A stretch of 64,000 nt of DNA. Origin: a virus. Below the pieces are notes generated by a model, which worked only from the letters and a program-made list of their open reading frames with translations, did not search any database and was not told the origin of the DNA. Below are positions 1,530-41,370 of this stretch, in pieces. The first letter of the stretch is position 1; every line of letters begins with the position of its first letter. The translations under genes were made by a program, and so were the position numbers. The stretch lies in IMG/VR virus record IMGVR_UViG_3300020394_000267, positions 1 through 64,000 of that record; one strand, given 5' to 3'.

Positions 1530-1558
1530 TTGACTTCTGCTATGGGATATGCGATCAT
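1530..1558 (+). promoter_or_regulatory. GATCAT-class promoter for the CobT-like gene
   Basis: TTGACT at 1530-1535, a 17-base spacer ending ATATGC, and GATCAT at 1553-1558. This is one of seven near-identical promoters in the window. The conserved block AAATCAATGACTTAGAG lies just upstream. The palindrome seen over the -10 in other copies is degenerate here. Confidence 0.75.
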
Positions 1559-1585: not shown

Positions 1586-4009
1586 ATGGACATAACTTCT
1601 AAATCATACCTTGCGAAACTCCTCGCTACTGAGGATGTTTCGATTGAACATAGGAATGTACCTACCGCGTACTTCGATTTGAAGTCTAGGAAGATTGTAC
1701 TTCCCAATTGGAAGGACATGCCTGATTTCTTGTATGATTTATTGATTGGTCATGAAGTTGGTCACGCTCTCGTAACTCCCGCTGAAGGTTGGCACTCTGC
1801 CTCTTCTAGTAAGGGTGCGAATTTCAAATCATTCTTGAATGTTGTAGAAGATGTTAGGAATGAGAGACTAGTTAAAATCAGATATCCAGGCTTGGTCAAG
1901 TCATTCTACAAGGGATATCAAATGCTTTACAAGAAAGACTTTTTCGGTCTTTCAAAATTACAAAAGACTCCCCAAGAATTACCACTAATTGATAGAATCA
2001 ATCTTCACGCTAAGGTTGGTGCTTTCCTTACTCTACAATTCACTGCTGAGGAACAGGTCATACTTGACAAGTGTTTCGCTGCTGAGACTTGGGATGAGGT
2101 AGTCGCCATTGCTGAGGAGTTGTATGACTTCTCTAAGACTGAAGACGCGATGCAAGATCTTTTAGATGAACAAATGGGTATGCCCCAGTTCGGTGAAGAA
2201 GATGAAGATGACTTCGCCCAAGATGAGAATGGCGAATGGTCAGAATCACCATACGGTGAAGAAGAGTCGGATGAAGATGAAGGTGAAGGCGAGTCCGAGT
2301 CTGGTGAAGAAACTGAAGAAGGTGAAGAGAGTGGTTCTGAGTCTGGTGAAGGTGAAGAGACTGAAGAAGAAACTGAAAAGACTACGCCTTCTAAAGAAGA
2401 GTCAAAAGATACTGAAGATTCTTCTGAGTCTGGTGACCCAGAAGATGGCGACATCATGGAGGGTTCTGACAATACTGAAGGTTACAATCCCCACGATTTC
2501 GATGACGCGGAACCTAAGTCATTTACCGATGAAGCGTTTAGAGATGCTGAACAAAACCTAGTAGAAGATGGCAAGACCAATGGTGTTGTTACTGCTACTA
2601 TGCCTAAGTTCAAGTCTAAGTACTTTGTTTTCCCAACTACCGATGTTTGGCCTGCCCAAGATTTTGAGTATGTTTGCGGTGGAAGGTATGATGACATTCC
2701 TGCTGGTTCTGCTCAAGATGTAGAAAAAACATTGCTTGATGAATTCATGCAAAGAAACAAGGGTTCAATTAATCAACTAGTTATGCAGTTTGAGATGAAG
2801 AAAAAAGCCACCCTATTGAGGAAGGCTCAAGTCAATAAAACTGGTAAGTTGAATGAAGATAAGTTGTGGGCATACAAGTTGACTGAAGACTTGTTCCTAT
2901 CAAGTACTACTGTGCCAGATGGTCAGAACCATGGCATGATGATGTTTGTAGACTTCTCTGGTTCAATGGGTAGACACATGGCTGGTACTATTGAACAGAC
3001 ACTAATTCAAGTTGCCTTCTGTAAAAAAGTTGGTATCCCATTTGATGTGTACGGTTTTTCAAACTGTGCTAACTCACTCCAGAGTGAGAAGTTCGGGAAT
3101 GCCTCTAGGGCTTCTGCGTTCCAATCTGCTAATGATGGTGAGTTGTTTATTGAGTCTGGTGGATTCGGTCTGCTTCAGTTGATATCTTCTGAATTGCCTC
3201 AGAGTGAGTACAATAGATGTTTCAAAAAGTTGCTTGGTTATAAAACTTCATTTGAGTGGAGAGATATGAAACCAAGAATGGAAAGATACAATGTTCCTTA
3301 CCATCTTTATCTTGGTTCTACTCCGCTGTCAAGTTGTATGATAGTTGGTGCTAAGATTGCTAAACAGTTCAAGGAAAGAAACAGAGTTGAAATTATGAAT
3401 ACAATTGTTCTTTCCGATGGTGGAAACACTTCTGACTTAGAAGTAATCTCGGAAGGTCAATATGAAGAGAGTGGTAGGTTCAGATATGAAAATGCCATCT
3501 CAAAAGAGTTTAGTGGGTACGGTTCAGAAAGATGCGAGATTGGTAAGTTCCAATTGAAAGGCAACGGTTTGTCAGTTACCACTAACATCAAAGGGATGTA
3601 TGGAACAAACTACGGTAGGGTCTCTTATGAAAGTGCTACTGCTGTTACTTTCGACTACTACAAAAAGTTTGTCGGTTCCAGAATAGTTCACTTCTTCCTA
3701 GTTGATAACAACATTAGAGAAGCGAGACAGGCATGGACTGATATGACAGGAACCTTTGCCGAGTATGATGAAAACTTTGATAAAGAAAAGTCAACTAATT
3801 GGAAAAACAATAACTTCATGGCTTGCGAGTCTAAGTTGGGAAGTGATGCTACTTTCATTCTGAAAGGTGCTAAGTCTCTTAATGAAGAGGCAGAGTTTGA
3901 AGTCAAGTCTGATAAGAAGGCTGACATTTTGAGAGGGTTCAAGAATTTCCAGAAAGGCAAGTCCAATTCCAGACAGTTCTTGAACAGATTTATTGATGAG
4001 GTCGCGTAA
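1586..4009 (+). CDS. cobT: CobT-like protein: HExxH domain, acidic linker, von Willebrand A domain
   Basis: Protein of 807 residues. The N-terminal region carries GHEVGH at 55-60, an HExxH zinc-peptidase motif, followed by NVVEDVRNERL at about 85-95. Residues about 200-300 are a very acidic Glu/Ser/Asp linker. A von Willebrand A domain follows, with the metal-binding DFSGSMG near residue 455. Acidic linker plus VWA is the layout of aerobic cobaltochelatase CobT and of VWA partners of MoxR ATPases. The next gene is the matching AAA+ protein. No CobN or other B12 gene is nearby, so a MoxR/VWA chaperone or protease role seems likelier than cobalt chelation. It has its own GATCAT promoter. Confidence 0.85.
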   Translation: MDITSKSYLAKLLATEDVSIEHRNVPTAYFDLKSRKIVLPNWKDMPDFLYDLLIGHEVGHALVTPAEGWHSASSSKGANFKSFLNVVEDVRNERLVKIRYPGLVKSFYKGYQMLYKKDFFGLSKLQKTPQELPLIDRINLHAKVGAFLTLQFTAEEQVILDKCFAAETWDEVVAIAEELYDFSKTEDAMQDLLDEQMGMPQFGEEDEDDFAQDENGEWSESPYGEEESDEDEGEGESESGEETEEGEESGSESGEGEETEEETEKTTPSKEESKDTEDSSESGDPEDGDIMEGSDNTEGYNPHDFDDAEPKSFTDEAFRDAEQNLVEDGKTNGVVTATMPKFKSKYFVFPTTDVWPAQDFEYVCGGRYDDIPAGSAQDVEKTLLDEFMQRNKGSINQLVMQFEMKKKATLLRKAQVNKTGKLNEDKLWAYKLTEDLFLSSTTVPDGQNHGMMMFVDFSGSMGRHMAGTIEQTLIQVAFCKKVGIPFDVYGFSNCANSLQSEKFGNASRASAFQSANDGELFIESGGFGLLQLISSELPQSEYNRCFKKLLGYKTSFEWRDMKPRMERYNVPYHLYLGSTPLSSCMIVGAKIAKQFKERNRVEIMNTIVLSDGGNTSDLEVISEGQYEESGRFRYENAISKEFSGYGSERCEIGKFQLKGNGLSVTTNIKGMYGTNYGRVSYESATAVTFDYYKKFVGSRIVHFFLVDNNIREARQAWTDMTGTFAEYDENFDKEKSTNWKNNNFMACESKLGSDATFILKGAKSLNEEAEFEVKSDKKADILRGFKNFQKGKSNSRQFLNRFIDEVA

Positions 4010-4058
4010 GTGGTTGATTTTACAGGGAAAGAAAATGAAAAAAAATTCATTTTGGCCC

Positions 4059-4091
4059 TTGACTTCTGCCCCAAAATATGGGATCATGATC
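4059..4091 (+). promoter_or_regulatory. GATCAT-class promoter with palindrome, before the CobS-like gene
   Basis: TTGACT at 4059-4064, 17-base spacer, GATCAT at 4082-4087. The -10 is the left half of the perfect palindrome GATCATGATC (4082-4091). An A-rich/T-rich repeat (4035-4053) just upstream may end transcription of the previous gene. A GTGAGAGG stretch precedes the ATG at 4122. Confidence 0.78.
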
Positions 4092-4121
4092 AGGTAATTG
4101 AGAAAAAGTGAGAGGTAAATT

Positions 4122-5360
4122 ATGAGTGTGAAACAAAAAGAACAGTTCCTTCAGGCCCTTGCCGATGTGAACAATTCCGCGTCTGCTGTGTTCTCCAAGG
4201 CGGAGGCAATGCAGATTGCAAAATCAAATGGGTTGAAAAATCCCATGTGGTTTTTTAAAGAGTGTAAAGTTGGTAGGAACCAATTTTCGCCAAACATGGC
4301 AACTCTAATGACTGTGGGTAATACTGCTCTCAAACCTGTCGCCGCTGAGGCGCCTGCCCTTGAAGAGACAGTATCTACCCTAGAACCGATTGAGACAATT
4401 CAGTCGCAATCATTGGATGCCAAGATTGTAAAACAGGCAAAACTTGCGGTGGAAATCGAGAATTTAATTCCAGATTCAGATAGTACTTATGTCCCATTTG
4501 GGTTCCATAAAGATTTGGTGAACATCATCAAGTCTGGTATGTTCTATCCGACTTTCATTTGCGGTCTTTCTGGTAACGGTAAGACTATGATGGTGGAACA
4601 GGTTTGTGCCAAACTCAAGAAAGAAGCCATTAGGGTTAACATCTCTATCGAGACCGATGAAGATGACTTGATTGGTGGTAACACTCTCGTGGATGGTAAT
4701 GTGGTTTACAGGGAAGGCCCTGTGCTGACTGCCATGAAGAGAGGTGCGATTCTCATTCTGGATGAGATTGATAGGGGTTCTAACAAGTTGATGTGCCTTC
4801 AGGCAATCCTTGAAGGGAAGCCTTACTTCAATAAGAAGTCTGGTGAGGTTGTCACGCCTGCTACTGGTTTCAATGTGATTGCTACTGCAAACACAAAAGG
4901 TAGGGGTTCCGATGATGGTAAGTTCATGGGTGCTCAAGTTCTGGATGAGGCGTTCCTAGAAAGGTTCGCTATCACAGTTGAACAGGAATATCCTTCTAGT
5001 GTTCAAGAGAAGAAAATTGTCATGAACAAAATGGGTGTTGCTGAGTGTGTCGATGAAGACTTTGCTGACAAGTTGGTCATGTGGGCTGACATAATCAGAA
5101 AGACTTTCTACGAAGGTGGAATCGATGAGTTGGTTTCCACTAGAAGGTTGGAACACATTGTCAAGGCATACGCCATGTTCTCTGATAGACTCAAGGCAAT
5201 TCAGTTGTGTGTCAATAGGTTCGATACCGACACCAAGTCTGCCTTCATTGACCTTTACACTAAGGTTGATGCTGGTGCCACGGTTGAAGAAATCATGGAC
5301 AATCCTACCGATGGTTCTGAAACAGAAACTTCTGAGGAGAATGATAGTTATGACTTCTAG
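4122..5360 (+). CDS. cobS: CobS/MoxR-like AAA+ ATPase
   Basis: Protein of 412 residues. Walker A is GLSGNGKT at about 148-155, Walker B is ILILDEID at about 210-217, sensor 1 lies in IATANTKG, and the EAFLERF motif is typical of MoxR/CobS ATPases. About 130 N-terminal residues form a separate helical region. These ATPases act with VWA proteins, and the upstream gene supplies one, so the two probably form a complex. cobS-like genes are common in marine T4-like phages. The C-terminus is acidic and the gene overlaps the following DUF3310 gene by 11 bases. Confidence 0.9.
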   Translation: MSVKQKEQFLQALADVNNSASAVFSKAEAMQIAKSNGLKNPMWFFKECKVGRNQFSPNMATLMTVGNTALKPVAAEAPALEETVSTLEPIETIQSQSLDAKIVKQAKLAVEIENLIPDSDSTYVPFGFHKDLVNIIKSGMFYPTFICGLSGNGKTMMVEQVCAKLKKEAIRVNISIETDEDDLIGGNTLVDGNVVYREGPVLTAMKRGAILILDEIDRGSNKLMCLQAILEGKPYFNKKSGEVVTPATGFNVIATANTKGRGSDDGKFMGAQVLDEAFLERFAITVEQEYPSSVQEKKIVMNKMGVAECVDEDFADKLVMWADIIRKTFYEGGIDELVSTRRLEHIVKAYAMFSDRLKAIQLCVNRFDTDTKSAFIDLYTKVDAGATVEEIMDNPTDGSETETSEENDSYDF

Positions 5361-6243: not shown

Positions 6244-6271
6244 GTGATGTTTAATTTGATTGAGGTATATT

Positions 6272-6922
6272 ATGAAACTATCCAAAACTACTTTGGAGTT
6301 GTTGAAAAACTTTGCTACGATTAATACCAATTTATTGGTTAAGTCTGGTAGTAGTTTATCAACTGTGTCCGCTTCAAAGTCTATTCTTGCGAAGGGCACA
6401 ATCGAAGAGAGCTTCCCACAGGAGTTCGCAATCTATGACTTAAATCAATTTCTATCTTTGGTCACAATGAGTGAAGATACTGAGATTGATTTTTCCGATG
6501 ATTATCTGACATGTAAGTCCGATGCTGGAAGGTTCAAGTTTTATTACGCGGAACCATCTATCATTGTGGCAGCTCCAGATAAGGAAATCGAAGTTGATGC
6601 TTTCTATCAATTCAACATTACCAAAGAACAACTCAACACTATCTACAGGGCAGCGAGTGTAATCTCTGCTCCTACTCTTAGTGTTGTCGCCAATGGTGGC
6701 AATGTGGTTCTGAGTGTGGGTGACCCGAATACTCCTAAGAGTAATTCATTTACTACCGACATTGGTAATGCTAATGTAGAGTTTGATGCTAGACTAGGGA
6801 TTGAGAACCTAAAAGTAATCGCGGATGATTATGAGGTTACTGTTTCCCAGAAGAAAGTATTCAAATTTTCTAACGCGAAGAGAACCTATTTCTTGGCACT
6901 TGAACCGAGTTCAAATATTTAA
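6272..6922 (+). CDS. 45: DNA polymerase sliding clamp (gp45)
   Basis: Protein of 216 residues, close to T4 gp45 (228). It starts MKLSKTTLELLKNFATIN, contains the IDFSDDYLTCKSDAGRFKF-type beta strands, and ends with FSNAKRTYFLALEP, all typical of marine T4-like clamps. The trimeric ring tethers gp43 to DNA and in T4 also activates late transcription. ATG 6272 is chosen because GAGG at 6262-6265 is correctly spaced; an upstream TTG at 6260 is less likely. The stop overlaps the next ATG (TAATG). Confidence 0.9.
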   Translation: MKLSKTTLELLKNFATINTNLLVKSGSSLSTVSASKSILAKGTIEESFPQEFAIYDLNQFLSLVTMSEDTEIDFSDDYLTCKSDAGRFKFYYAEPSIIVAAPDKEIEVDAFYQFNITKEQLNTIYRAASVISAPTLSVVANGGNVVLSVGDPNTPKSNSFTTDIGNANVEFDARLGIENLKVIADDYEVTVSQKKVFKFSNAKRTYFLALEPSSNI

Positions 6923-9254: not shown

Positions 9255-9445
9255 GAAAAAAGAATGTGAAAGAAAGACGAAAAGTCGCACTGGGTAACTT
9301 GCTGAAAGCAAAGTTTACTCCAAAACAGGTAAAGTCTGGCAAGTTTGTCAAAGGCAAACCTGTTATGGTAGACCGTTCTGAGGAAACTTGGAACAAGAAT
9401 CGTGATTACCAGATTGAGGTATTAGAAAAAAGGGTGCAAGGATGA
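9251..9445 (+). CDS. small basic hypothetical protein
   Basis: TTG start overlaps the previous stop (TTGA) and the stop overlaps the gp44 ATG (ATGA), so the frame is locked between two genes. The 64 residues are very Lys/Arg rich (MRKKNVKERRKVALGN). It may bind nucleic acid; no family recognised. Confidence 0.7.
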   Translation: MRKKNVKERRKVALGNLLKAKFTPKQVKSGKFVKGKPVMVDRSEETWNKNRDYQIEVLEKRVQG

Positions 9446-10371
9446 GTGAGTTTTTATGGGTAGAGAAGTATAGACCCCAAACTATTTCCGATTGCATTTT
9501 ACCAGATGGTCTGAAACAAACTTTCCAAGAGTATGTGGATGCTGGTGAAATATCTAATATGCTTTTGTGTGGGACTGCTGGTACAGGTAAGACCACGGTG
9601 GCGAGAGCACTTTGTAATGAACTTGGTTGTGACTATATTGTTATCAACGGTTCGGATGAAAGTGGTATCGATGTATTGCGTACTAAGATAAGAGACTTTG
9701 CGAGTACAGTCAGTTTTGAAAGTAAGGCGAAGGTTGTCATCCTAGACGAGGCAGACTATCTAAATCCAAACTCAACTCAACCAGCACTTAGAGCTTTTAT
9801 TGAAGAGTTTTCTGGCAATTGCAGATTTATTTTCACATGCAATTTCAAGAATCGAATCATCGAACCTCTTCACAGTAGAACATCTGTTATCGATTTTAAA
9901 ATTGATAAGAAAGATAGACCAGAAATGGCACAGAAGTTCATGGGAAGGATGCAGTATATCCTAACCAGCGAAAATATTCCATACGAACAGAATGTTCTCG
10001 CGGAACTATTGATGAAACACTTCCCAGACTATCGTAGGGTTATTAATGAACTCCAGAGATATTCTAAGAGTGGTTCTATCGATAGTGGTATCCTAAGTAA
10101 CATCGCTGAGATAAACACTAAGGGATTGATTGACAGTCTCAAGGATAAGGATTGGAAGAAGATGAGACAATGGGTAGTCAACAATGTTGACAATGACCCA
10201 CAAGGTGTCTACAGGAAGGTCTATGATGCTCTTATCGATAAGGTGAAACAAGTACCCCACTTGGTACTATTGATTGCCGACTATCAGTACAAGAGTGCAT
10301 TTGTGGCAGACCAAGAGATTAACTTGACCGCGTGTCTAACTGATATCATGGCGAGTGTTGAATTTAAATGA
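9442..10371 (+). CDS. 44: clamp loader large subunit (gp44)
   Basis: AAA+ ATPase of 309 residues (T4 gp44 is 319). It starts with WVEKYRPQTI, then Walker A GTAGTGKT (about 44-51), Walker B VVILDEAD (98-105), sensor FTCNFKNRI and the arginine-finger region LHSRTSVIDF. With gp62 it opens the gp45 ring and loads it at primer-template junctions. Overlaps gp62 by four bases (ATGA). Confidence 0.95.
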   Translation: MSEFLWVEKYRPQTISDCILPDGLKQTFQEYVDAGEISNMLLCGTAGTGKTTVARALCNELGCDYIVINGSDESGIDVLRTKIRDFASTVSFESKAKVVILDEADYLNPNSTQPALRAFIEEFSGNCRFIFTCNFKNRIIEPLHSRTSVIDFKIDKKDRPEMAQKFMGRMQYILTSENIPYEQNVLAELLMKHFPDYRRVINELQRYSKSGSIDSGILSNIAEINTKGLIDSLKDKDWKKMRQWVVNNVDNDPQGVYRKVYDALIDKVKQVPHLVLLIADYQYKSAFVADQEINLTACLTDIMASVEFK

Positions 10372-12780: not shown

Positions 12781-15285
12781 ATGTCTAATTTTTATACTTA
12801 TGCGTGGCAATATGGAAATTCCATCCTTACTCGTGGAGTGAGGAATGGTGAGCGTTTTACTGAAAAACATCCATTTCAACCAACCTTGTATGTCAGAAGT
12901 AATGAACCTTCTGAATTTACTAACATTGATGGTCATTATCTAAAACCAATTCAGTTTGGAGATAATGGCGACTGCAAAGAATTCCTAGACAAATACTCTA
13001 AGGTAGATAACTACCCCATCTATGGTCAAACTGATTTGACCTATCAGTATTTGTCTTCTATGTATCCGCAAGATATTGAGTTTGACCTCAGTAAGATGCG
13101 GATTTTTTCAATTGATATTGAGACAACTGCCGAACACGGTTTCCCAGATACGGAGAATCCTATCGAAGAGGTTCTTCTTATTACACTCGTAGACAACTAC
13201 ACCAAAGAAATATTTACTTGGGGTTCTGGTGAGTGGAAGCCTGGCGAAGAAACAAAAGACCTCAATGTCACTTACACTTATTGTTCCGATGAGTATGACT
13301 TGTTGGAAAAATTCATGACATGGTGGGCACAAGACTATCCCGATGTAGTTACTGGATGGAACCTAGAACTATTCGATATGCCATATTTGGTTGGTAGAAT
13401 CGACAGAATGTTTGGTAACAACGCGAAGAACAATCTCAGTCCATATGGGATGACTAGGAAGAAAGTCATCAAGGGTCACAACAATCGTGAATTGTTGAAG
13501 GTTGATATGAAGGGTATCATTCAACTTGACTACATGGATTTGTACAAAAAGTTTACTTATACTTTCCAAGAAAGTTATCGACTTGATTACATTGCCGAGG
13601 TAGAACTTGGTAAGAAGAAATTGGAAAGTGGATACGAAACATTCCGCGAGTTCTATGAGAATGATTGGAATCGATTCATTGACTATAACATCATCGATAC
13701 TGTTCTGGTTGACGAACTTGATGACAAGATGAAATTCTTGGAACTGATTATCACAATGGGATATGACTGTAAATGTAATTACAATGATATCTTTTCATCT
13801 GTGAGAACTTGGGATTGTTTGTTATTCAATCATCTACTTGAAAAGAACATTATGATTCCTCAGAAGAAGGAACACTTCTCTAAGGGATTTGCTGGTGGTT
13901 ATGTGCAAGACCCGAAGGTGGGTAAGTACAAGTGGGTTGTATCAGTTGATGCGACTTCTCTGTATCCATCTATCATCATGCAACATAATCTATCACCAGA
14001 GATGTTGGCAGAGGGACATAAACCTCTGGACTGTACGGTTGATAGTATTCTGGAAAGGAAACATGTTCTCAAGAGGTTGAAGGAAGCAGACTTATCCATG
14101 GCAGCCAACGGTTATATGTTTGCTAGAAACACGCAAGGATTCATGGCAGAAATTACTCAGAAGTTTTTTGATGACAGACAGAAGTACAAAAAACTCATGA
14201 AGAAGGCAGAACAGGATTTTGAGGATACCAAGAATCCAGAACTCAAGAAAGATATTGCGAAGTTCAACAACTTCCAGATGGCAAGAAAGATTCAATTGAA
14301 CTCTCTCTTTGGTGCGATAGGTAACAAGTGGTTCAGATATTTCGATGAACGCATCGCAGAGGCAATCACACTAACTGGTCAGTTAATCATTCGTGATACT
14401 GGTAAGGCAGTTGATGAGTTTCTAAACAAGTTTCTTGGTACAGAGGATGTTGAGTATTCTTTCTATACTGATACTGACAGTTGTTATGTGACTCTTGATA
14501 AGATGGTGGAAGAACATCTACAGGGTAAATCTCGTGATGAGATTATTAACATACTTGACAACTTTGTCGAGAACAAACTAGAACCAGCAATCAATGGTAG
14601 AATGGTTGAACTTGGTGAGTACATGAATGTATTCCAACCCAAGATATTCTTCAAACGCGAGGCGATTGCGGATACTGGTATCTGGGTTGCAAAGAAAAGA
14701 TATGCACTAAATGTATGGGACAATGAAGGTGTTCGATACAAGGAACCTAAACTCAAGGTGATGGGTCTGGAGATTGTAAGGTCTTCTACACCAGCACCAG
14801 TTAGGGAAAGTCTCAAACATGCAGTTGAGTTATGTTTGAACAAGGATGAAAAAGAATTACAGGAGTTTGTTGAGGATACATGGCAGGCATTTAGTAAAAT
14901 GTCTCCAGAAGAAATTGCCTTCCCACGCGGATGTAACAACATTGATAAGTATGCCTCAAGAGAAACAGTTTATACCAAAGGAACACCGATGCATGTTCGG
15001 GGTGCCTTGGTTTACAATCACTTGCTTAGGACTCAGAAACTAGAGAAGAAGTATCAAACCATTCAAGATGGTGACAAGATTAAATTCCTCTATCTGAAAG
15101 AACCTAACCATGTGAGAGAAAATACCGTGGCGATGAATGGTCTTATGCCGAAAGAGTTCGACTTGCATCGTTACATTGATTATGAAACAATGTTTGAGAA
15201 AGCATTTATTGACCCATTGACTACTATAGTCACCAGTTTGGATTGGAAGACTAGACCAGTAGCAACATTGGAGTCGTTATTTTAG
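12781..15285 (+). CDS. 43: family B DNA polymerase (gp43)
   Basis: Protein of 834 residues. Exonuclease motif I is FSIDIETTA (about 110-118). Polymerase motif A is VDATSLYPSIIMQHN, motif B is QLNSLFGAIGNKWFRY, and motif C is YTDTDSCYV. It is the replicative polymerase with proofreading, working with gp45/44/62, gp41 and gp61. Slightly shorter than T4 gp43 (898), as usual for marine relatives. It has its own promoter and is followed within a few bases by uvsX. Confidence 0.97.
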   Translation: MSNFYTYAWQYGNSILTRGVRNGERFTEKHPFQPTLYVRSNEPSEFTNIDGHYLKPIQFGDNGDCKEFLDKYSKVDNYPIYGQTDLTYQYLSSMYPQDIEFDLSKMRIFSIDIETTAEHGFPDTENPIEEVLLITLVDNYTKEIFTWGSGEWKPGEETKDLNVTYTYCSDEYDLLEKFMTWWAQDYPDVVTGWNLELFDMPYLVGRIDRMFGNNAKNNLSPYGMTRKKVIKGHNNRELLKVDMKGIIQLDYMDLYKKFTYTFQESYRLDYIAEVELGKKKLESGYETFREFYENDWNRFIDYNIIDTVLVDELDDKMKFLELIITMGYDCKCNYNDIFSSVRTWDCLLFNHLLEKNIMIPQKKEHFSKGFAGGYVQDPKVGKYKWVVSVDATSLYPSIIMQHNLSPEMLAEGHKPLDCTVDSILERKHVLKRLKEADLSMAANGYMFARNTQGFMAEITQKFFDDRQKYKKLMKKAEQDFEDTKNPELKKDIAKFNNFQMARKIQLNSLFGAIGNKWFRYFDERIAEAITLTGQLIIRDTGKAVDEFLNKFLGTEDVEYSFYTDTDSCYVTLDKMVEEHLQGKSRDEIINILDNFVENKLEPAINGRMVELGEYMNVFQPKIFFKREAIADTGIWVAKKRYALNVWDNEGVRYKEPKLKVMGLEIVRSSTPAPVRESLKHAVELCLNKDEKELQEFVEDTWQAFSKMSPEEIAFPRGCNNIDKYASRETVYTKGTPMHVRGALVYNHLLRTQKLEKKYQTIQDGDKIKFLYLKEPNHVRENTVAMNGLMPKEFDLHRYIDYETMFEKAFIDPLTTIVTSLDWKTRPVATLESLF

Positions 15286-16352: not shown

Positions 16353-16509
16353 TAGGTGTGGGACTGGCATTGATTTAGAAAACGATGCTGGAATATGTTT
16401 TCGACACGCGGATGGAGAAGCATATCTCTGTGAGAAGTGTGTTGAAGAAGTGAAGGAAGATTTTTATAATGAGATTAGAACAAACAATACTATCGAATCT
16501 GATACATAA
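16333..16509 (+). CDS. small zinc-ribbon protein
   Basis: Protein of 58 residues starting MPTPKCDRCGTG, with a second pair CEKC about 35 residues on; the two CxxC pairs predict one zinc ribbon. It overlaps the end of uvsX and the start of the helicase gene. A GTG at 16315 would add six residues. Possibly an accessory of recombination or replication by position only. Confidence 0.65.
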   Translation: MPTPKCDRCGTGIDLENDAGICFRHADGEAYLCEKCVEEVKEDFYNEIRTNNTIESDT

Positions 16510-17848
16510 CGAAGAGTATGTCAGACAATCAATTGCACATTTAAAGGCATCTTATTTCTTAGATGCTGAATACCGTGAAGTATTCAAATGTGTTCGTGAT
16601 TATGTTACTGCATATAATTCACCACCACAAGTCAGTGCAATTAAAATTGCCTTACAAGATAACAGAAAGATTACTGAAGACCTCTATGAAAAATGTGAGG
16701 GACTTATCAATAGTCTTGGTGAATCGGATGTTGATAACAGATGGTTGATTGACCAGACAGAAAAGTTCTGTAAAGACAAGGCAGTTTACAATGCTATCAT
16801 GCAATCTATTCAGATTATCGATGGACAGGATAAAACACATTCAGTAGATGCTCTGCCTTCTATATTGTCCGATGCTCTTAGTGTTGGGTTTGATAATAAC
16901 ATTGGTCACGATTATGTGGGTGATGCTGAACAACGATTTGATTTCTATCATAGACACGAAGAGAAGTTGCCATTTGACCTAGAGTATTTCAACAAGATTA
17001 CTGAAGGTGGATTGATAAACAAGACACTTAATATCGCTCTTGCTGGTACAGGTGTTGGTAAATCTCTTTTCATGTGTCATGTGGGTGCATCCATGATTGC
17101 TCAAGGTAAGAATGTTTTGTATATCACATTGGAAATGGCAGAGGAAAGAATCGCTGAAAGAATTGATGCGAACATGATGGATGTTTCCATGCAAGATTTG
17201 AGAGACTTATCCAAGTCCATGTACACAGACCGTATTCAGAAAATCAAAAACAAAGTTGACGGTAGATTGATTGTCAAAGAATATCCAACTGCTACTGCTC
17301 ATGCTGGTCATTTCAGAGCACTTCTTGAAGAGTTGAAACTCAAACAAAATTTCTATCCAGACATAATCTTTATCGACTATCTAAACATTTGTGTAAGTCA
17401 AAGACTCAGAAATAATGCTGGTGCAAACTCATATACCATAGTCAAGGCAATCGCTGAGGAACTAAGGGGACTGGCAGTAGAGTATGATTTACCAATAGTA
17501 TCCGCAACCCAGACCACGCGAGGTGGGTTTAACAACAGTGATGTTGATTTGACGGATACTTCAGAAAGTTTTGGACTGCCTGCAACCGCAGACTTGATGT
17601 TTGCTCTTATAAGTACAGAAGAGTTAGAACAACAAGGTCATATGATGGTCAAACAGTTGAAGAATAGATACAGTGACCCTACAAGAAACAAACGATTTAT
17701 GATTGGTGTTGACAGGGCGAAGATGAGATTGTTTGATTTGGATGATGCTCAACAAAATCTGGTAGACTCTGGACAGGAAGATGACCAACCAGTATTTGAT
17801 AAAGGAAGTTTCGGCACTCGTATGAACTTGTCGGATATAAAAGTATAA
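16469..17848 (+). CDS. 41: replicative DNA helicase (gp41, DnaB family)
   Basis: Protein of 459 residues. It has an N-terminal helical domain, then the RecA-like core with Walker A AGTGVGKS near 193-200, Walker B IIFIDYLNI, and the ATQTTRGG region. It unwinds DNA as a hexamer at the fork with primase gp61. The start lies inside the zinc-ribbon gene, with GGAAG about 10 bases upstream. The C-terminus is acidic. Confidence 0.95.
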   Translation: MRLEQTILSNLIHNEEYVRQSIAHLKASYFLDAEYREVFKCVRDYVTAYNSPPQVSAIKIALQDNRKITEDLYEKCEGLINSLGESDVDNRWLIDQTEKFCKDKAVYNAIMQSIQIIDGQDKTHSVDALPSILSDALSVGFDNNIGHDYVGDAEQRFDFYHRHEEKLPFDLEYFNKITEGGLINKTLNIALAGTGVGKSLFMCHVGASMIAQGKNVLYITLEMAEERIAERIDANMMDVSMQDLRDLSKSMYTDRIQKIKNKVDGRLIVKEYPTATAHAGHFRALLEELKLKQNFYPDIIFIDYLNICVSQRLRNNAGANSYTIVKAIAEELRGLAVEYDLPIVSATQTTRGGFNNSDVDLTDTSESFGLPATADLMFALISTEELEQQGHMMVKQLKNRYSDPTRNKRFMIGVDRAKMRLFDLDDAQQNLVDSGQEDDQPVFDKGSFGTRMNLSDIKV

Positions 17849-37149: not shown

Positions 37150-37972
37150 TAAGGTAACTTCAGAAGACCTTGCAATTACACTGGCAAAGGCAGAAGACGA
37201 GAGTTCCGAGATAGAAAAGGTAAGGGAGAGAATTCCCTATGCCTTTCCTTGGAATAGGAGACTTGATGAACCATGTCGCGTGGAATGGAGTTCCACTGAT
37301 AGTAAAGAGGCATTTGAATCAAACTCTATCAATCAAAAAGAACAGATTGAAAAGTATGGTTGGGATGAACATAAAGTTTACTATGATTTGAACTCACATG
37401 GATACAGGTGTGATGAATTCTATGAAGATAGAAATTCTTATGTTGGTATTGGTGAGTGTTTTACATATGGTACAGGATTACCAGCAGAGATGTCATGGAC
37501 AAACTTGCTGGAGAAAGACATTGGTGAGAAGGTATGGAATCTAGGATTATGTACTACTGGACTAGATACCGCATTTAGAACTCTTTTAACTTGGTTACCA
37601 GTAATCAAACCTAAAGCAGTTCTTATGTTAGAGAATAGTACACTTGCTAGGGAAACTTGGTACATTGATGAGAACAATGAGGAATGGAATACTTGCATTG
37701 GATTCTGGTCTGATTTGGAGTGGCAACAAGAGGTATGTCTTAGTAAGACAGAAAGGTATTTAAACAGAAGAAAGAATTTAATGGCCATCAAAGAATTGTG
37801 TAGGATGGAAGGTGTTGAGTTTAAATTAATAACTGCAAAAGAAAGAAACGAAATAGGTTTTCGTGATTGGGAAGCAAATAAAGATACAAAATATGCATTA
37901 GCAAGGGACTTAATGCACCCAGGCTTGTATTTTCATCAATCGATGGTGCATCGATGGAAAGAGGAACTATAA
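37136..37972 (+). CDS. SGNH-hydrolase-like phage protein (paralogue 1)
   Basis: Protein of 278 residues. The stretch NSHGYRCDEFYEDRNSYVGI, then GECFTYGTGL, MSWTNLLEKDIGEKVWNLGL and WLPVIKPKAVLML follows the SGNH pattern (Gly block, vNxG block, acidic/kP block), but the catalytic Ser of GDS is replaced by GECF. Three other SGNH-like genes in the window share the layout. It lies between thyX and nrdA, with its stop coupled to the nrdA start. Enzymatic role uncertain. Confidence 0.65.
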   Translation: MQWTDKVTSEDLAITLAKAEDESSEIEKVRERIPYAFPWNRRLDEPCRVEWSSTDSKEAFESNSINQKEQIEKYGWDEHKVYYDLNSHGYRCDEFYEDRNSYVGIGECFTYGTGLPAEMSWTNLLEKDIGEKVWNLGLCTTGLDTAFRTLLTWLPVIKPKAVLMLENSTLARETWYIDENNEEWNTCIGFWSDLEWQQEVCLSKTERYLNRRKNLMAIKELCRMEGVEFKLITAKERNEIGFRDWEANKDTKYALARDLMHPGLYFHQSMVHRWKEEL

Positions 37973-39771
37973 TGGCGACAGAGGATTATTTAGGAATTAA
38001 GATAGACAGGGACAGAGACCAACTATTTGATAAGTTGGGAATACAACGCCTGCAAGAAAGTTACATGAAAGAGGACGAAGAAAGTCCACAGGAGAGGTTT
38101 GCTTTTGTAAGTAAACAGTTTGCATCTAGCGATGAACATGCTCAACGGTTGTATGATTACGCTAGTAAACACTGGTTGTCTTACTCTACACCTATTCTAT
38201 CATTTGGTAGGTCTAAAAAGGGTCTGCCTATTTCATGTTTTTTAAATTACATAAACGATACAGCGGAGGGATTAGTTGAAAATTTATCGGAAACAAATTG
38301 GCTTAGTATGCTTGGGGGCGGTGTTGGTATTGGGTTTGGTATCCGAGCTAGCGATGATAAGTCTACTGGCGTCTTGCCACATCTCAAAACCTACGACTCA
38401 AGTAGTCTGGCATATAGACAGGGGCGTACCCGCCGAGGGTCATATGCTGCCTACCTCGACATTAGTCACCCCGATATTACAATGTTTCTCGAAATGCGTA
38501 AACCAACAGGAGACCAAAACCTCAGATGTCTAAACTTACATCACGGTATTAATATCAGTGATAGGTTTATGGAGATGATTGAAAGGTGCATGTCAGACCC
38601 AGATGCTGATGACAGGTGGAATCTAACAGACCCACATACAGGAGAAGTACGCGAGACTGTATCTGCTAAACATCTATGGCAGAAGATACTTGAAATGCGT
38701 ATGGAGACAGGGGAACCATATTTACATTTTGTTGACACTAGTAACAGAGAAATGCCAGAGTGGTTAAAAGATAAAGGATTAAAAATTAGTCAGTCTAATC
38801 TTTGTTCTGAAATTATCCTACCGACAAATGAAAAGAGGACTGCTGTATGTTGTCTTTCGTCTGTTAACCTAGAACACTATGATGCATGGTCAAAGAGTAC
38901 CACATTCTTAAAAGATGTGGCAGAGATGTTAGACAATGTGTTACAGTATTTTATTGATAACGCACCAGAGACAGTATCGCGGGCAGTTTACTCAGCGAAA
39001 CAGGAAAGAAGTATTGGTGTTGGTGCATTGGGATTCCATGCATATTTACAAAAGAACAACATACCATTTGAAGGATTCATGGCAAAATCCACTAATATAA
39101 GAATGTTCAAATTGATAAGGGGGAAATTAGATGAAGCAAACTTGGAACTTGGTAGGGAGAGAGGCGAAGCTATTGATGCGAGAGGCACAGGAAGAAGATT
39201 TAGTCATGTTATGGCTGTTGCTCCTAATGCTTCCAGTAGTATTATTATGGGAAACACTTCGCCGAGTATTGAACCGTATCGCGCTAACGCTTACAGGCAA
39301 GACACATTATCTGGGGCTTATCTCAATAAGAATAAGCATCTGGATGTTGTCATTAAAGATAAATGCGAGAAGAATAAAAGGTTGGATTATGACAAAATTT
39401 GGTCATCGATAATTGCCAACGATGGGTCAGTACAACATGTATCATGTCTGGATGAGAAAGAGAAAGAAATTTATAAGACTGCTATGGAGATTGACCAGAG
39501 ATGGGTAGTCGAACATGCATCCACCAGACAAGAATGGATAGACCAAGGACAATCTGTTAATCTATTTTTTAGACCAGATGTCAACATAAAGTATTTACAT
39601 GCAATACACTATCTCGCGTGGAAACAAGGTATGAAAACTTTGTACTATTGTAGGTCAGAGAAGTTAGGAAAGGCAGACAAGGTATCCAAACGCATTGAAA
39701 GAGAAGCGATAAAAGAAATTGATTTTCAGAGTATGATTGATGGTGAAAACTGTGTTGCATGTGAAGGATAA
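37972..39771 (+). CDS. nrdA: ribonucleotide reductase large subunit NrdA
   Basis: Protein of 599 residues. SQSNLCSEIILP, CCLSSVNLEHY, SIGVGALGFHAYLQ and NASSSIIMGNTSPSIEP are the class I alpha-subunit motifs. The redox C-terminus ends GENCVACEG with a CxxC pair. It lacks an N-terminal ATP-cone, as in short marine phage versions, so dATP feedback is probably absent. ATG 37972 is coupled (TAATG) to the previous stop with GAGG at 37961; an in-frame ATG at 37954 is less likely. Confidence 0.95.
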   Translation: MATEDYLGIKIDRDRDQLFDKLGIQRLQESYMKEDEESPQERFAFVSKQFASSDEHAQRLYDYASKHWLSYSTPILSFGRSKKGLPISCFLNYINDTAEGLVENLSETNWLSMLGGGVGIGFGIRASDDKSTGVLPHLKTYDSSSLAYRQGRTRRGSYAAYLDISHPDITMFLEMRKPTGDQNLRCLNLHHGINISDRFMEMIERCMSDPDADDRWNLTDPHTGEVRETVSAKHLWQKILEMRMETGEPYLHFVDTSNREMPEWLKDKGLKISQSNLCSEIILPTNEKRTAVCCLSSVNLEHYDAWSKSTTFLKDVAEMLDNVLQYFIDNAPETVSRAVYSAKQERSIGVGALGFHAYLQKNNIPFEGFMAKSTNIRMFKLIRGKLDEANLELGRERGEAIDARGTGRRFSHVMAVAPNASSSIIMGNTSPSIEPYRANAYRQDTLSGAYLNKNKHLDVVIKDKCEKNKRLDYDKIWSSIIANDGSVQHVSCLDEKEKEIYKTAMEIDQRWVVEHASTRQEWIDQGQSVNLFFRPDVNIKYLHAIHYLAWKQGMKTLYYCRSEKLGKADKVSKRIEREAIKEIDFQSMIDGENCVACEG

Positions 39772-40381
39772 TGTAGAAAAAGAAATACCACTAAATAAAA
39801 AGATTGCGGTTTTAGTTAGTGGTGGATGGGATAGTGCCGTTCTATGGTATCTAGTGAAATCCGTATGTATTGAACGCAATCAAGAATGTGAACCTTTTAC
39901 TGTTCCAAAACTAGATGGTGCTGAGTATTACGCTAATCTAGTCTTAGAATGGTCTTCTGAGCGTCTAGGACACGCTCTAATGAAAACAACCATCGTAGGT
40001 GATATATCATCCGATAATCCCTCTGATTATGTTTTAAGTGGTGGTTATGAGATATGGAATGAGGGATTGGCGGAACACTTGTTTAGTGCGGTAAACATGT
40101 ATCCACCGAATCAAAGGTCTCTCATGCCTGAAGGGTATCCTCTACCCAATGATAGATTTGTCAAGACAGAGGAACATACTCATTTAAGTCAGCCATTCGC
40201 TGACTTGACAAAAGACAAGATTATACAATTAGGATTTGATTTAGGTATAGCGAATGAGATTGCGCCCATTACGCATAGTTGTACCGAATTGGACAGGGGC
40301 AGATGTAATAACTGCTGGTGGTGTAAAGAAAGAGAATGGGCATTTAAAGAAATAGGACAGGTAGATATTGGAGAGAACTAA
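39761..40381 (+). CDS. queC: QueC-like PP-loop enzyme (7-cyano-7-deazaguanine synthase type)
   Basis: Protein of about 206 residues. The PP-loop is VLVSGGWDSAVLW near 18-30, and a zinc site CTELDRGRCNNCWWC near the C-terminus matches the QueC CX7-8CX2CX2C knuckle. QueC turns 7-carboxy-7-deazaguanine into preQ0. The start is uncertain: GTG 39761 is a choice among GTG 39761, ATG 39740 and TTG 39737, all inside the nrdA end. It lies between nrdA and nrdB; no QueD, QueE, FolE or DpdA gene is visible in this window. Confidence 0.75.
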   Translation: MKDNVEKEIPLNKKIAVLVSGGWDSAVLWYLVKSVCIERNQECEPFTVPKLDGAEYYANLVLEWSSERLGHALMKTTIVGDISSDNPSDYVLSGGYEIWNEGLAEHLFSAVNMYPPNQRSLMPEGYPLPNDRFVKTEEHTHLSQPFADLTKDKIIQLGFDLGIANEIAPITHSCTELDRGRCNNCWWCKEREWAFKEIGQVDIGEN

Positions 40382-41370
40382 TGACCCCTAAACAAGATTT
40401 AACAAGTAAAAGAGAATATTTTAAACCATTTAACTATCCTTGGGCATACGAGGCGTGGTTGAAACACGAGCAATCTCATTGGTTGCATACTGAAGTACCG
40501 ATGGCAGAAGATGTAAAAGATTGGAAGGAACGATTATCACAAGAAGAGAAAGCATTTCTTACTAATATATTTCGATTCTTCACACAGGGTGACATAGATG
40601 TGGCAGATGGATATGTGACTAACTATCTGCCATATTTTCCGCAACCAGAAATACGAATGATGTTATCTGGTTTCGCTGCTAGAGAGGCACTTCATGTTGC
40701 CGCCTACTCACATCTTATTGAAACACTTGGGATGCCCGAGAGTACATACAGTGAGTTCTTGGAGTATCAGGCGATGGCAGACAAACACGAATACTTTATG
40801 GACTTATCAAAAGCAAATGGAACCGCAGAGAGTGTTGCCACTAACATCGCCGCTTTTAGTGCATTTACTGAGGGTATGCAGTTGTTTAGTTCTTTCATTA
40901 TGTTGTTGAACTTTCCGCGTCATGGTAAGATGAAGGGGATGGGTCAGATTATTACATGGTCTATTGTAGATGAGACTATGCACGCTGAGTCTATGATTAA
41001 GTTGTTTAGGACATACATAGAAGAAAACAGAACACTATGGAAAGATTCTCTCAAGAGAGAAATATACACTATCGCTGAGAATATGGTAGAATTGGAAGAG
41101 AAATTTATTGACCTTGCATTTGCTATGGGCCCAATGGAAAATCTAAAACCAGAGGATGTTAAAACATACATTCGATACATTGCTGACAGGAGATTGATTA
41201 GTTTAGGTATGAAGGGTATATTCAAGGTAAAAAGAAATCCACTATTATGGGTAGAGGAAATGATTAACGCACCTACCCATACTAACTTTTTTGAAAATAG
41301 AGCAACAGACTATGCGAGGGGGGCGCTCCAAGGTAAATGGGATGATGTTTGGGGAACAGCTGTAGCATAA
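40381..41370 (+). CDS. nrdB: ribonucleotide reductase small subunit NrdB
   Basis: Protein of 329 residues of the ferritin-like R2 family. Carboxylate/His metal ligands are visible in FFTQGDIDVADG, AAREALHVAAYSHLIE and IVDETMHAESMIKLF. The di-iron site generates the radical used by NrdA. The first ATG overlaps the queC stop (TAATG), so nrdA-queC-nrdB form one operon. Confidence 0.93.
   Translation: MTPKQDLTSKREYFKPFNYPWAYEAWLKHEQSHWLHTEVPMAEDVKDWKERLSQEEKAFLTNIFRFFTQGDIDVADGYVTNYLPYFPQPEIRMMLSGFAAREALHVAAYSHLIETLGMPESTYSEFLEYQAMADKHEYFMDLSKANGTAESVATNIAAFSAFTEGMQLFSSFIMLLNFPRHGKMKGMGQIITWSIVDETMHAESMIKLFRTYIEENRTLWKDSLKREIYTIAENMVELEEKFIDLAFAMGPMENLKPEDVKTYIRYIADRRLISLGMKGIFKVKRNPLLWVEEMINAPTHTNFFENRATDYARGALQGKWDDVWGTAVA

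Follow-up and report, generated by a model that had tools for sequence, protein, structure and literature searches.

A CobT-like phage protein with a probable metallopeptidase domain and a VWA domain, encoded beside a MoxR-type ATPase

The first 64,000 nucleotides of IMG/VR virus record IMGVR_UViG_3300020394_000267 (hereafter the window), a 91-kb record of a marine T4-like virus with T4-like replication genes, contain two adjacent genes on the plus strand, on which all features located below also lie: gene A (1586..4009), which encodes a CobT-like protein of 807 amino acids (aa), and gene B (4122..5360), which encodes a MoxR-type AAA+ ATPase of 412 aa, the 'CobS' of phages. Together they probably form a MoxR AAA+/VWA remodelling machine, the VWA subunit of which carries a minigluzincin-like metallopeptidase domain that is likely to be active. 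The metal-peptidase site of gene A is intact and strictly conserved and is lost in the true B12 enzyme of bacteria; therefore, the pair is better read as an ATP-driven remodelling, and probably protein-cutting, machine. An earlier note on this DNA had proposed a MoxR/VWA/peptidase system rather than a cobalt chelatase. A peptidase-like domain, a VWA domain with a metal ion-dependent adhesion site (MIDAS), and a MoxR-type ATPase were indeed found, with no phage CobN, but the pair is not unrelated to CobT, since proteins like that of Salmonella phage SSU5 reveal a remote homology.

Gene A is an open reading frame (ORF) that matches the PHROG 459 profile ('peptidase') over its full length (aa 5-807, E 2.9e-168). 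It comprises a metallopeptidase-like N-terminal domain (aa 6-197; 1601..2176), an acidic low-complexity linker (aa 200-318; 2183..2539) composed of 44.5% D+E and 3.4% K+R, and a C-terminal region with a VWA domain (modelled part, 2621..4006). Within the N-terminal domain, G55 is followed by the HEVGH motif (H56-E57-V58-G59-H60; 1751..1765), which holds predicted zinc ligands and the predicted general base, and then by E88-D89 (1847..1852), in which E88 is the predicted third zinc ligand. At the motif level, this is the gluzincin pattern of HExxH plus a downstream glutamate. The VWA domain has a complete MIDAS, consisting of DxSxS (D456-F-S-G-S460, with D456, S458, and S460; 2951..2965), T579 within S-T-P-L (3320..3322), and D611 within S-D-G-G (3416..3418); the latter two correspond to the invariant T234-P235 and D266-G267 of VWA alignment A3. 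The VWA region of gene A had no Pfam profile match, CobT_C included. Gene B matches PHROG 249 'porphyrin biosynthesis' (CobS; E 9.9e-112) as well as Pfam AAA_5 (E 1.3e-17) and CbbQ_C, and has a Walker A motif (GLSGNGKT, aa 148-155; 4563..4586), a Walker B motif (ILILDEI, aa 210-216; 4749..4769), and a TAN motif at aa 255. Thus, the motif residues, the acidic linker, and the neighbouring MoxR-type ATPase are all as the earlier note had read them.

Because an HExxH motif arises in 0.75% of shuffled gene A N-terminal domains, the motif by itself is modest evidence, and the claim is carried by its conservation. A first scan of viral contigs, with peptide patterns that do not contain HExxH, yielded 11 loci with an N-terminus, and a second yielded 80. 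The patterns of the second scan contain 'HE' or 'N-V-x-E-D', and it is therefore biased towards part of the motif, although not towards the second histidine. HExxH followed by ED was present in all 91 loci that contain the N-terminus, and H56, E57, H60, E88, and D89 were invariant in 60/60 non-redundant aligned N-terminal domains, for which the mean column identity was 52%. The earlier note had held that its reading would fall if HExxH were not conserved among homologues; within the T4-like family, no such loss was seen. Gene B lies directly downstream of gene A in nearly all loci of sufficient length. At least 463 public phage records, mostly of cyanophages, encode gene A, and in a sample of isolates from among them (S-PM2, P-SSM2, HTVC008M, and Ochrobactrum phage OC) HExxH was read in each. 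Contrary to the statement that phage genes of this kind are usually labelled cobT, the T4-like phages listed mostly say 'peptidase'.

HExxH is also found in relatives beyond the T4-like phages. For instance, the SSU5 protein combines it (DHEVAH) with matches to Pfam CobT (PF06213, 2.1e-37) and CobT_C (PF11775, 2.5e-112). HExxH and, downstream of it, ED are likewise found in Cyrano, RHEph10, CRP-810, an Aeromonas plasmid, and an IncC plasmid, and HExxH is near the same place in ICP2 and Gordonia phage Woes. Additionally, the haloviruses have it in HCTV-2 gp79 (NHEMEH...NVLED) and HHTV-2 gp2 (SHEVQH...NVLED), and in the latter the metallopeptidase-like domain is a separate ORF, apart from the VWA gene. 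That HExxH recurs at this place in lineages whose hosts are unrelated counts in favour of a metallopeptidase. For the MoxR genes of a Listeria phage and Staphylococcus phage K, no HExxH protein was present among the neighbours checked. On the IncC plasmid pAM04528, the HExxH-VWA relative (L250:3878-5674) lies beside ssb, bet, and exonuclease genes, and a MoxR gene was not found within the 8.2 kb examined. In the unverified record of Pseudoalteromonas phage vB_Psh_XG4 (L254), the HExxH-VWA gene is apparently split over frames.

Structure prediction points in the same direction. The AlphaFold2 model of the gene A N-terminal domain (mean predicted local distance difference test score, pLDDT, 86.8; predicted template modelling score, pTM, 0.82) has a predicted gluzincin-like fold with three strands, in which HExxH sits in helix 47-63 and E88 in helix 78-99. 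In a Foldseek search of the PDB, the top matches were the minigluzincins jannalysin (prob 0.99, E 0.15) and abylysin (prob 0.96, E 0.36), with ArdC and selecase lower and Wss1 further down, a set made up mostly of zincins. Against viral models, the matches were phage or halovirus 'CobT' or VWA proteins and, lower, SprT-like and PolyVal metallopeptidases. The C-terminal VWA region was modelled with a mean pLDDT of 71 and matched the NorD VWA domain in complex with NorQ, the MDN1 MIDAS domain, and other VWA domains in the PDB. NorD and MDN1 partner MoxR-like or related AAA+ ATPases, and these matches are therefore counted in favour of a MoxR-VWA machine. A PDB sequence search with the N-domain and VWA profiles returned no match. 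Pfam matches of the N-terminal domain to MPTase-PolyVal (4 members, best E 0.01) and M48 (E 0.088) were too weak to be used as evidence.

Several observations weigh against an active peptidase. The N-terminal domain, which the earlier note had wanted checked for a zincin fold, has a confident model with minigluzincins as its top matches, but with E-values of 0.15 or worse the matches are not individually significant and the fold match is suggestive only. A Pfam scan of the 60 N-terminal domains found no peptidase family at a significant score. Moreover, HExxH is lost in phiK7B1 (DSEISK), BUCTxx99 (DREVST), and an Acinetobacter plasmid (DQEVAK), all of which retain the MIDAS motif and a MoxR or AAA ATPase gene. 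Such a machine can thus work without peptidase activity in three phage or plasmid lineages.

The relationship to cellular CobT is remote. HExxH was found in none of 60 CobT sequences, complete or fragmentary and matching strongly or weakly, that came from 60 alphaproteobacterial genomes; its position is occupied by S/A-M/I-A-L-R/K, and the glutamate of the following helix, which aligns with E88, is kept (AxEQARVE). Two cellular ORFs with HExxH were set aside, as the motif lies outside the domain, at position 44 of an ORF read from stop to stop, where the sequence looks like translated upstream DNA. In hhalign comparisons, the T4-like N-terminal domain matched SSU5-type proteins (98.2%, E 2.7e-14, HExxH aligned on HExxH), and these in turn matched cellular CobT (probability 95.7%, E 8.5e-9). 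The direct comparison of T4-like and cellular proteins (20%) is too weak alone, and the argument for homology therefore runs through the SSU5 group: the SSU5 version is recognised by Pfam as a full CobT and also carries HExxH, which makes the phage proteins homologous to CobT. Judged by these alignments, the kinship of gene A with CobT is remote, and the cellular form is without the catalytic residues. The comparison called for by the earlier note thus confirmed that HExxH is a point of difference, but did not set the N-terminal domain apart from the CobT family. Gene A scored 9.7 bits against TIGR01651 (CobT), the cut-off of which is 759, and had no PF06213 or PF11775 match.

In an unrooted MoxR/CobS tree of 56 rows, in which Woes, ICP2, CRP-810, and OC are long branches, the T4-like proteins formed one clan (100/99) and cellular CobS another (98/97). 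The distribution of HExxH on this tree needs three changes. The protein nearest to the cellular CobS clan (100/91) was that of the roseophage CRP-810, the partner of which has HExxH. This position, together with the retention in CobT of the third-ligand glutamate but not of HExxH, was counted in favour of a tentative proposal, in which we place distinctly less confidence than in the machine itself: bacterial CobT might derive, with loss of catalysis, from an ATP-driven metalloprotease-VWA machine that is still intact in viruses of bacteria and archaea and in plasmids, where it would act in the replication or takeover phase. A decayed CobT would suggest an origin for the unusual N-terminal domain of that protein, and this evolutionary point is the most interesting one. 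The literature search turned up no publication that connects CobT with a zincin domain.

Genes A and B each have their own promoter-like element, as the earlier note had stated: TTGACTTCTGC-N12-GATCAT at 1530..1558, with GATCAT at the -10 position and a 17-base spacer, and TTGACTTCTGC-N12-GATCAT at 4059..4087. These elements are conserved in close relatives, the one upstream of gene A in L002-L005, L008, G001, and G002; more distant relatives showed no GATCAT promoter elements. TTGAC-N18-GATCAT occurs seven times on the plus strand of the window (1530, 4059, 19259, 34760, 53017, 56997, and 58945). GATC is about 12-fold depleted (19 observed versus about 234 expected), and 11 of the 19 sites are in, or just after, these elements, which suggests a methylation-sensitive or phage-specific promoter. 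A phage Dam methylase was considered, but no PF02086 (MethyltransfD12) gene was found.

Downstream in the window are genes for the clamp (6260-6922), clamp loader (9442-10371), DNA polymerase (12781-15285), and helicase (16469-17848). In HTVC008M and S-PM2 the pair neighbours gp46/gp47/gp55/uvsW, and in the annotated lineages examined it is mostly among replication, recombination, or transcription genes. A defence-system reading was dropped, since PADLOC gave no match for gene A and two weak ones (E 0.003-0.004) for gene B. No paper on early or late expression of cyanophage cobS was found. At the start of the window are two overlapping genes: 112-447, for a NifU-like Fe-S assembly protein (PHROG 8429), and 428-751, for a small protein that by eye resembles an A-type Fe-S carrier (PHROG 17776, function label unknown).

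One alternative, put forward by Liu et al. 2021 (PMC8651126) and implied by many annotations, is that phage CobS and CobT are two cobaltochelatase subunits that hijack the CobN of the host and raise B12 production. Besides being published, it can draw on the remote homology of gene A to CobT through the SSU5 group and on the resemblance of gene B to CobS (PDB CobS, E 3.4e-22; TIGR01650, 83.2 bits). However, that score is far under the CobS cut-off of 558.55 bits, gene B groups in the tree with the T4-like proteins, apart from cellular CobS, and gene A keeps the HExxH that cellular CobT lacks. No CobN (PF02514) was present in ten phage records (the whole 91-kb record, its relatives, and six named phages), so that the earlier note's statement that no other B12 gene is near holds as regards CobN, and phage-coded CobN, which it had named as speaking against its reading, was not encountered. 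CobN was not found in an Escherichia coli control genome either, and yet SSU5-type genes are on many Escherichia plasmids. The phage encodes class I NrdA and NrdB ribonucleotide reductase, and thus has its own dNTP supply without need for B12. The ORF flanked by NrdA (37954-39771) and NrdB (40381-41370), at 39737-40381, is possibly a deazaguanine-related gene, as it has a weak QueC match (E 1.3e-6) in its C-terminal part. Pelagibacter, the host of HTVC008M, is reported to be without the methionine synthases MetH and MetE (PMC12478193). Across 337 alphaproteobacterial genomes of unknown completeness, CobT was found in 252, CobN in 133, and both in 128; the two are associated, yet 124/252 CobT genomes themselves have no CobN match. 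In the Caulobacter control genome, too, CobT was matched but CobN was not. Such orphan CobST pairs of cells may serve a purpose other than cobalt chelation. Overall, we consider a chelatase role of the phage pair very unlikely.

Two further explanations accept much of the same anatomy. The pair could be a protease-chaperone that folds and processes structural proteins late in infection, as proposed by Iyer et al. 2021 for jumbo phages with the same architecture, and a MoxR-vWA chaperone is needed for the tails of Acidianus two-tailed virus (cited in PMC7824862). The replication, recombination, and transcription genes, rather than structural genes, that mostly surround the pair speak against a purely virion-assembly role, as does the relative on IncC conjugative plasmids, which make no virion, and we regard such a role as rather unlikely. 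Alternatively, the N-terminal domain may bind zinc or serve as a binding platform while MoxR and VWA alone do the work, as in NorQD and CobST. The lineages that lost HExxH but retained VWA and MoxR would fit this, as would its absence from all 60 cellular CobT sequences. Nevertheless, the strict invariance of HExxH and ED in the T4-like clan is difficult to account for unless these residues serve catalysis or metal binding, and a non-proteolytic remodeller appears quite improbable.

For the favoured peptidase-bearing machine, we infer the following mode of action. By analogy with NorQ on NorD, a gene B hexamer would dock on the VWA domain of gene A, and the MIDAS metal would grip an acidic residue of the target protein. 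In NorQD, the VWA partner inserts a finger into the pore of the ATPase, and the VWA domain is twisted relative to the N-terminal domain as ATP is hydrolysed (PMC13036017). Hydrolysis by gene B may similarly twist the VWA domain against the N-terminal domain through the flexible acidic linker and so pull the target, and the putative zinc site (H56/H60/E88, with E57 as base) would cut an exposed segment of the target or the linker itself. Given the replication and recombination neighbours and the pair's own promoters, the target more probably acts in the replication or takeover phase, as a protein of the host or the phage, than in the B12 pathway.

These results bear on how ocean viruses are interpreted. 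T4-like cyanophages have cobS among their core genes (PMC3037559), and in ocean viruses it is commonly listed as an auxiliary metabolic gene for B12. Should the two genes instead encode a peptidase-remodelling machine, this conclusion about viral B12 metabolism would fall. Published statements conflict: in group 2.2 jumbo phages, Iyer et al. 2021 recognised a MoxR-vWA pair that includes an N-terminal metallopeptidase domain (PMC7824862), whereas Liu et al. 2021 regarded the CobST proteins of haloviruses and phages as subunits of a chelatase and considered the label of the cyanophage gene an error ('mistakenly annotated as a peptidase'; PMC8651126). Because two haloviruses from the very group covered by Liu et al. 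2021 have HExxH, this conflict is directly testable. As regards anatomy, the present data support Iyer et al. 2021 and the 'peptidase' label, and call Liu et al. 2021 into question. The peptidase-VWA-MoxR architecture is thus not new, having already been proposed for jumbo phages, and the cyanophage gene was already labelled 'peptidase'.

Among the closest known systems is the PHROG 459 and PHROG 249 pair of Kyanoviridae (S-PM2, Syn33, and HTVC008M), which is of the same family, has the same gene order and place near gp46 and gp45/gp44, and keeps HExxH in the 'peptidase' proteins read, although whole-protein identity to gene A is only about 32-34%. The group 2.2 jumbo-phage pair (for example, ASV44728.2/ASV44729.1), compared by its described architecture, follows the same three-domain logic, there put forward on the basis of sequence, but virion assembly was proposed for it, whereas a replication or takeover role is preferred here. 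NorQ/NorD shares the MoxR ATPase and its MIDAS-bearing VWA partner; however, NorD is not known as a peptidase and its target is cNOR. The minigluzincins (jannalysin, abylysin, and selecase) share HExxH and the subsequent glutamate helix with the N-terminal domain, but are small stand-alone proteins. Lastly, the CobS/CobT cobaltochelatase has in common with the phage pair the MoxR-type ATPase, the CobT-like N-terminal domain, the acidic linker, and the VWA domain, and differs from it in the replacement of HExxH and in its CobN subunit, which the phage lacks.

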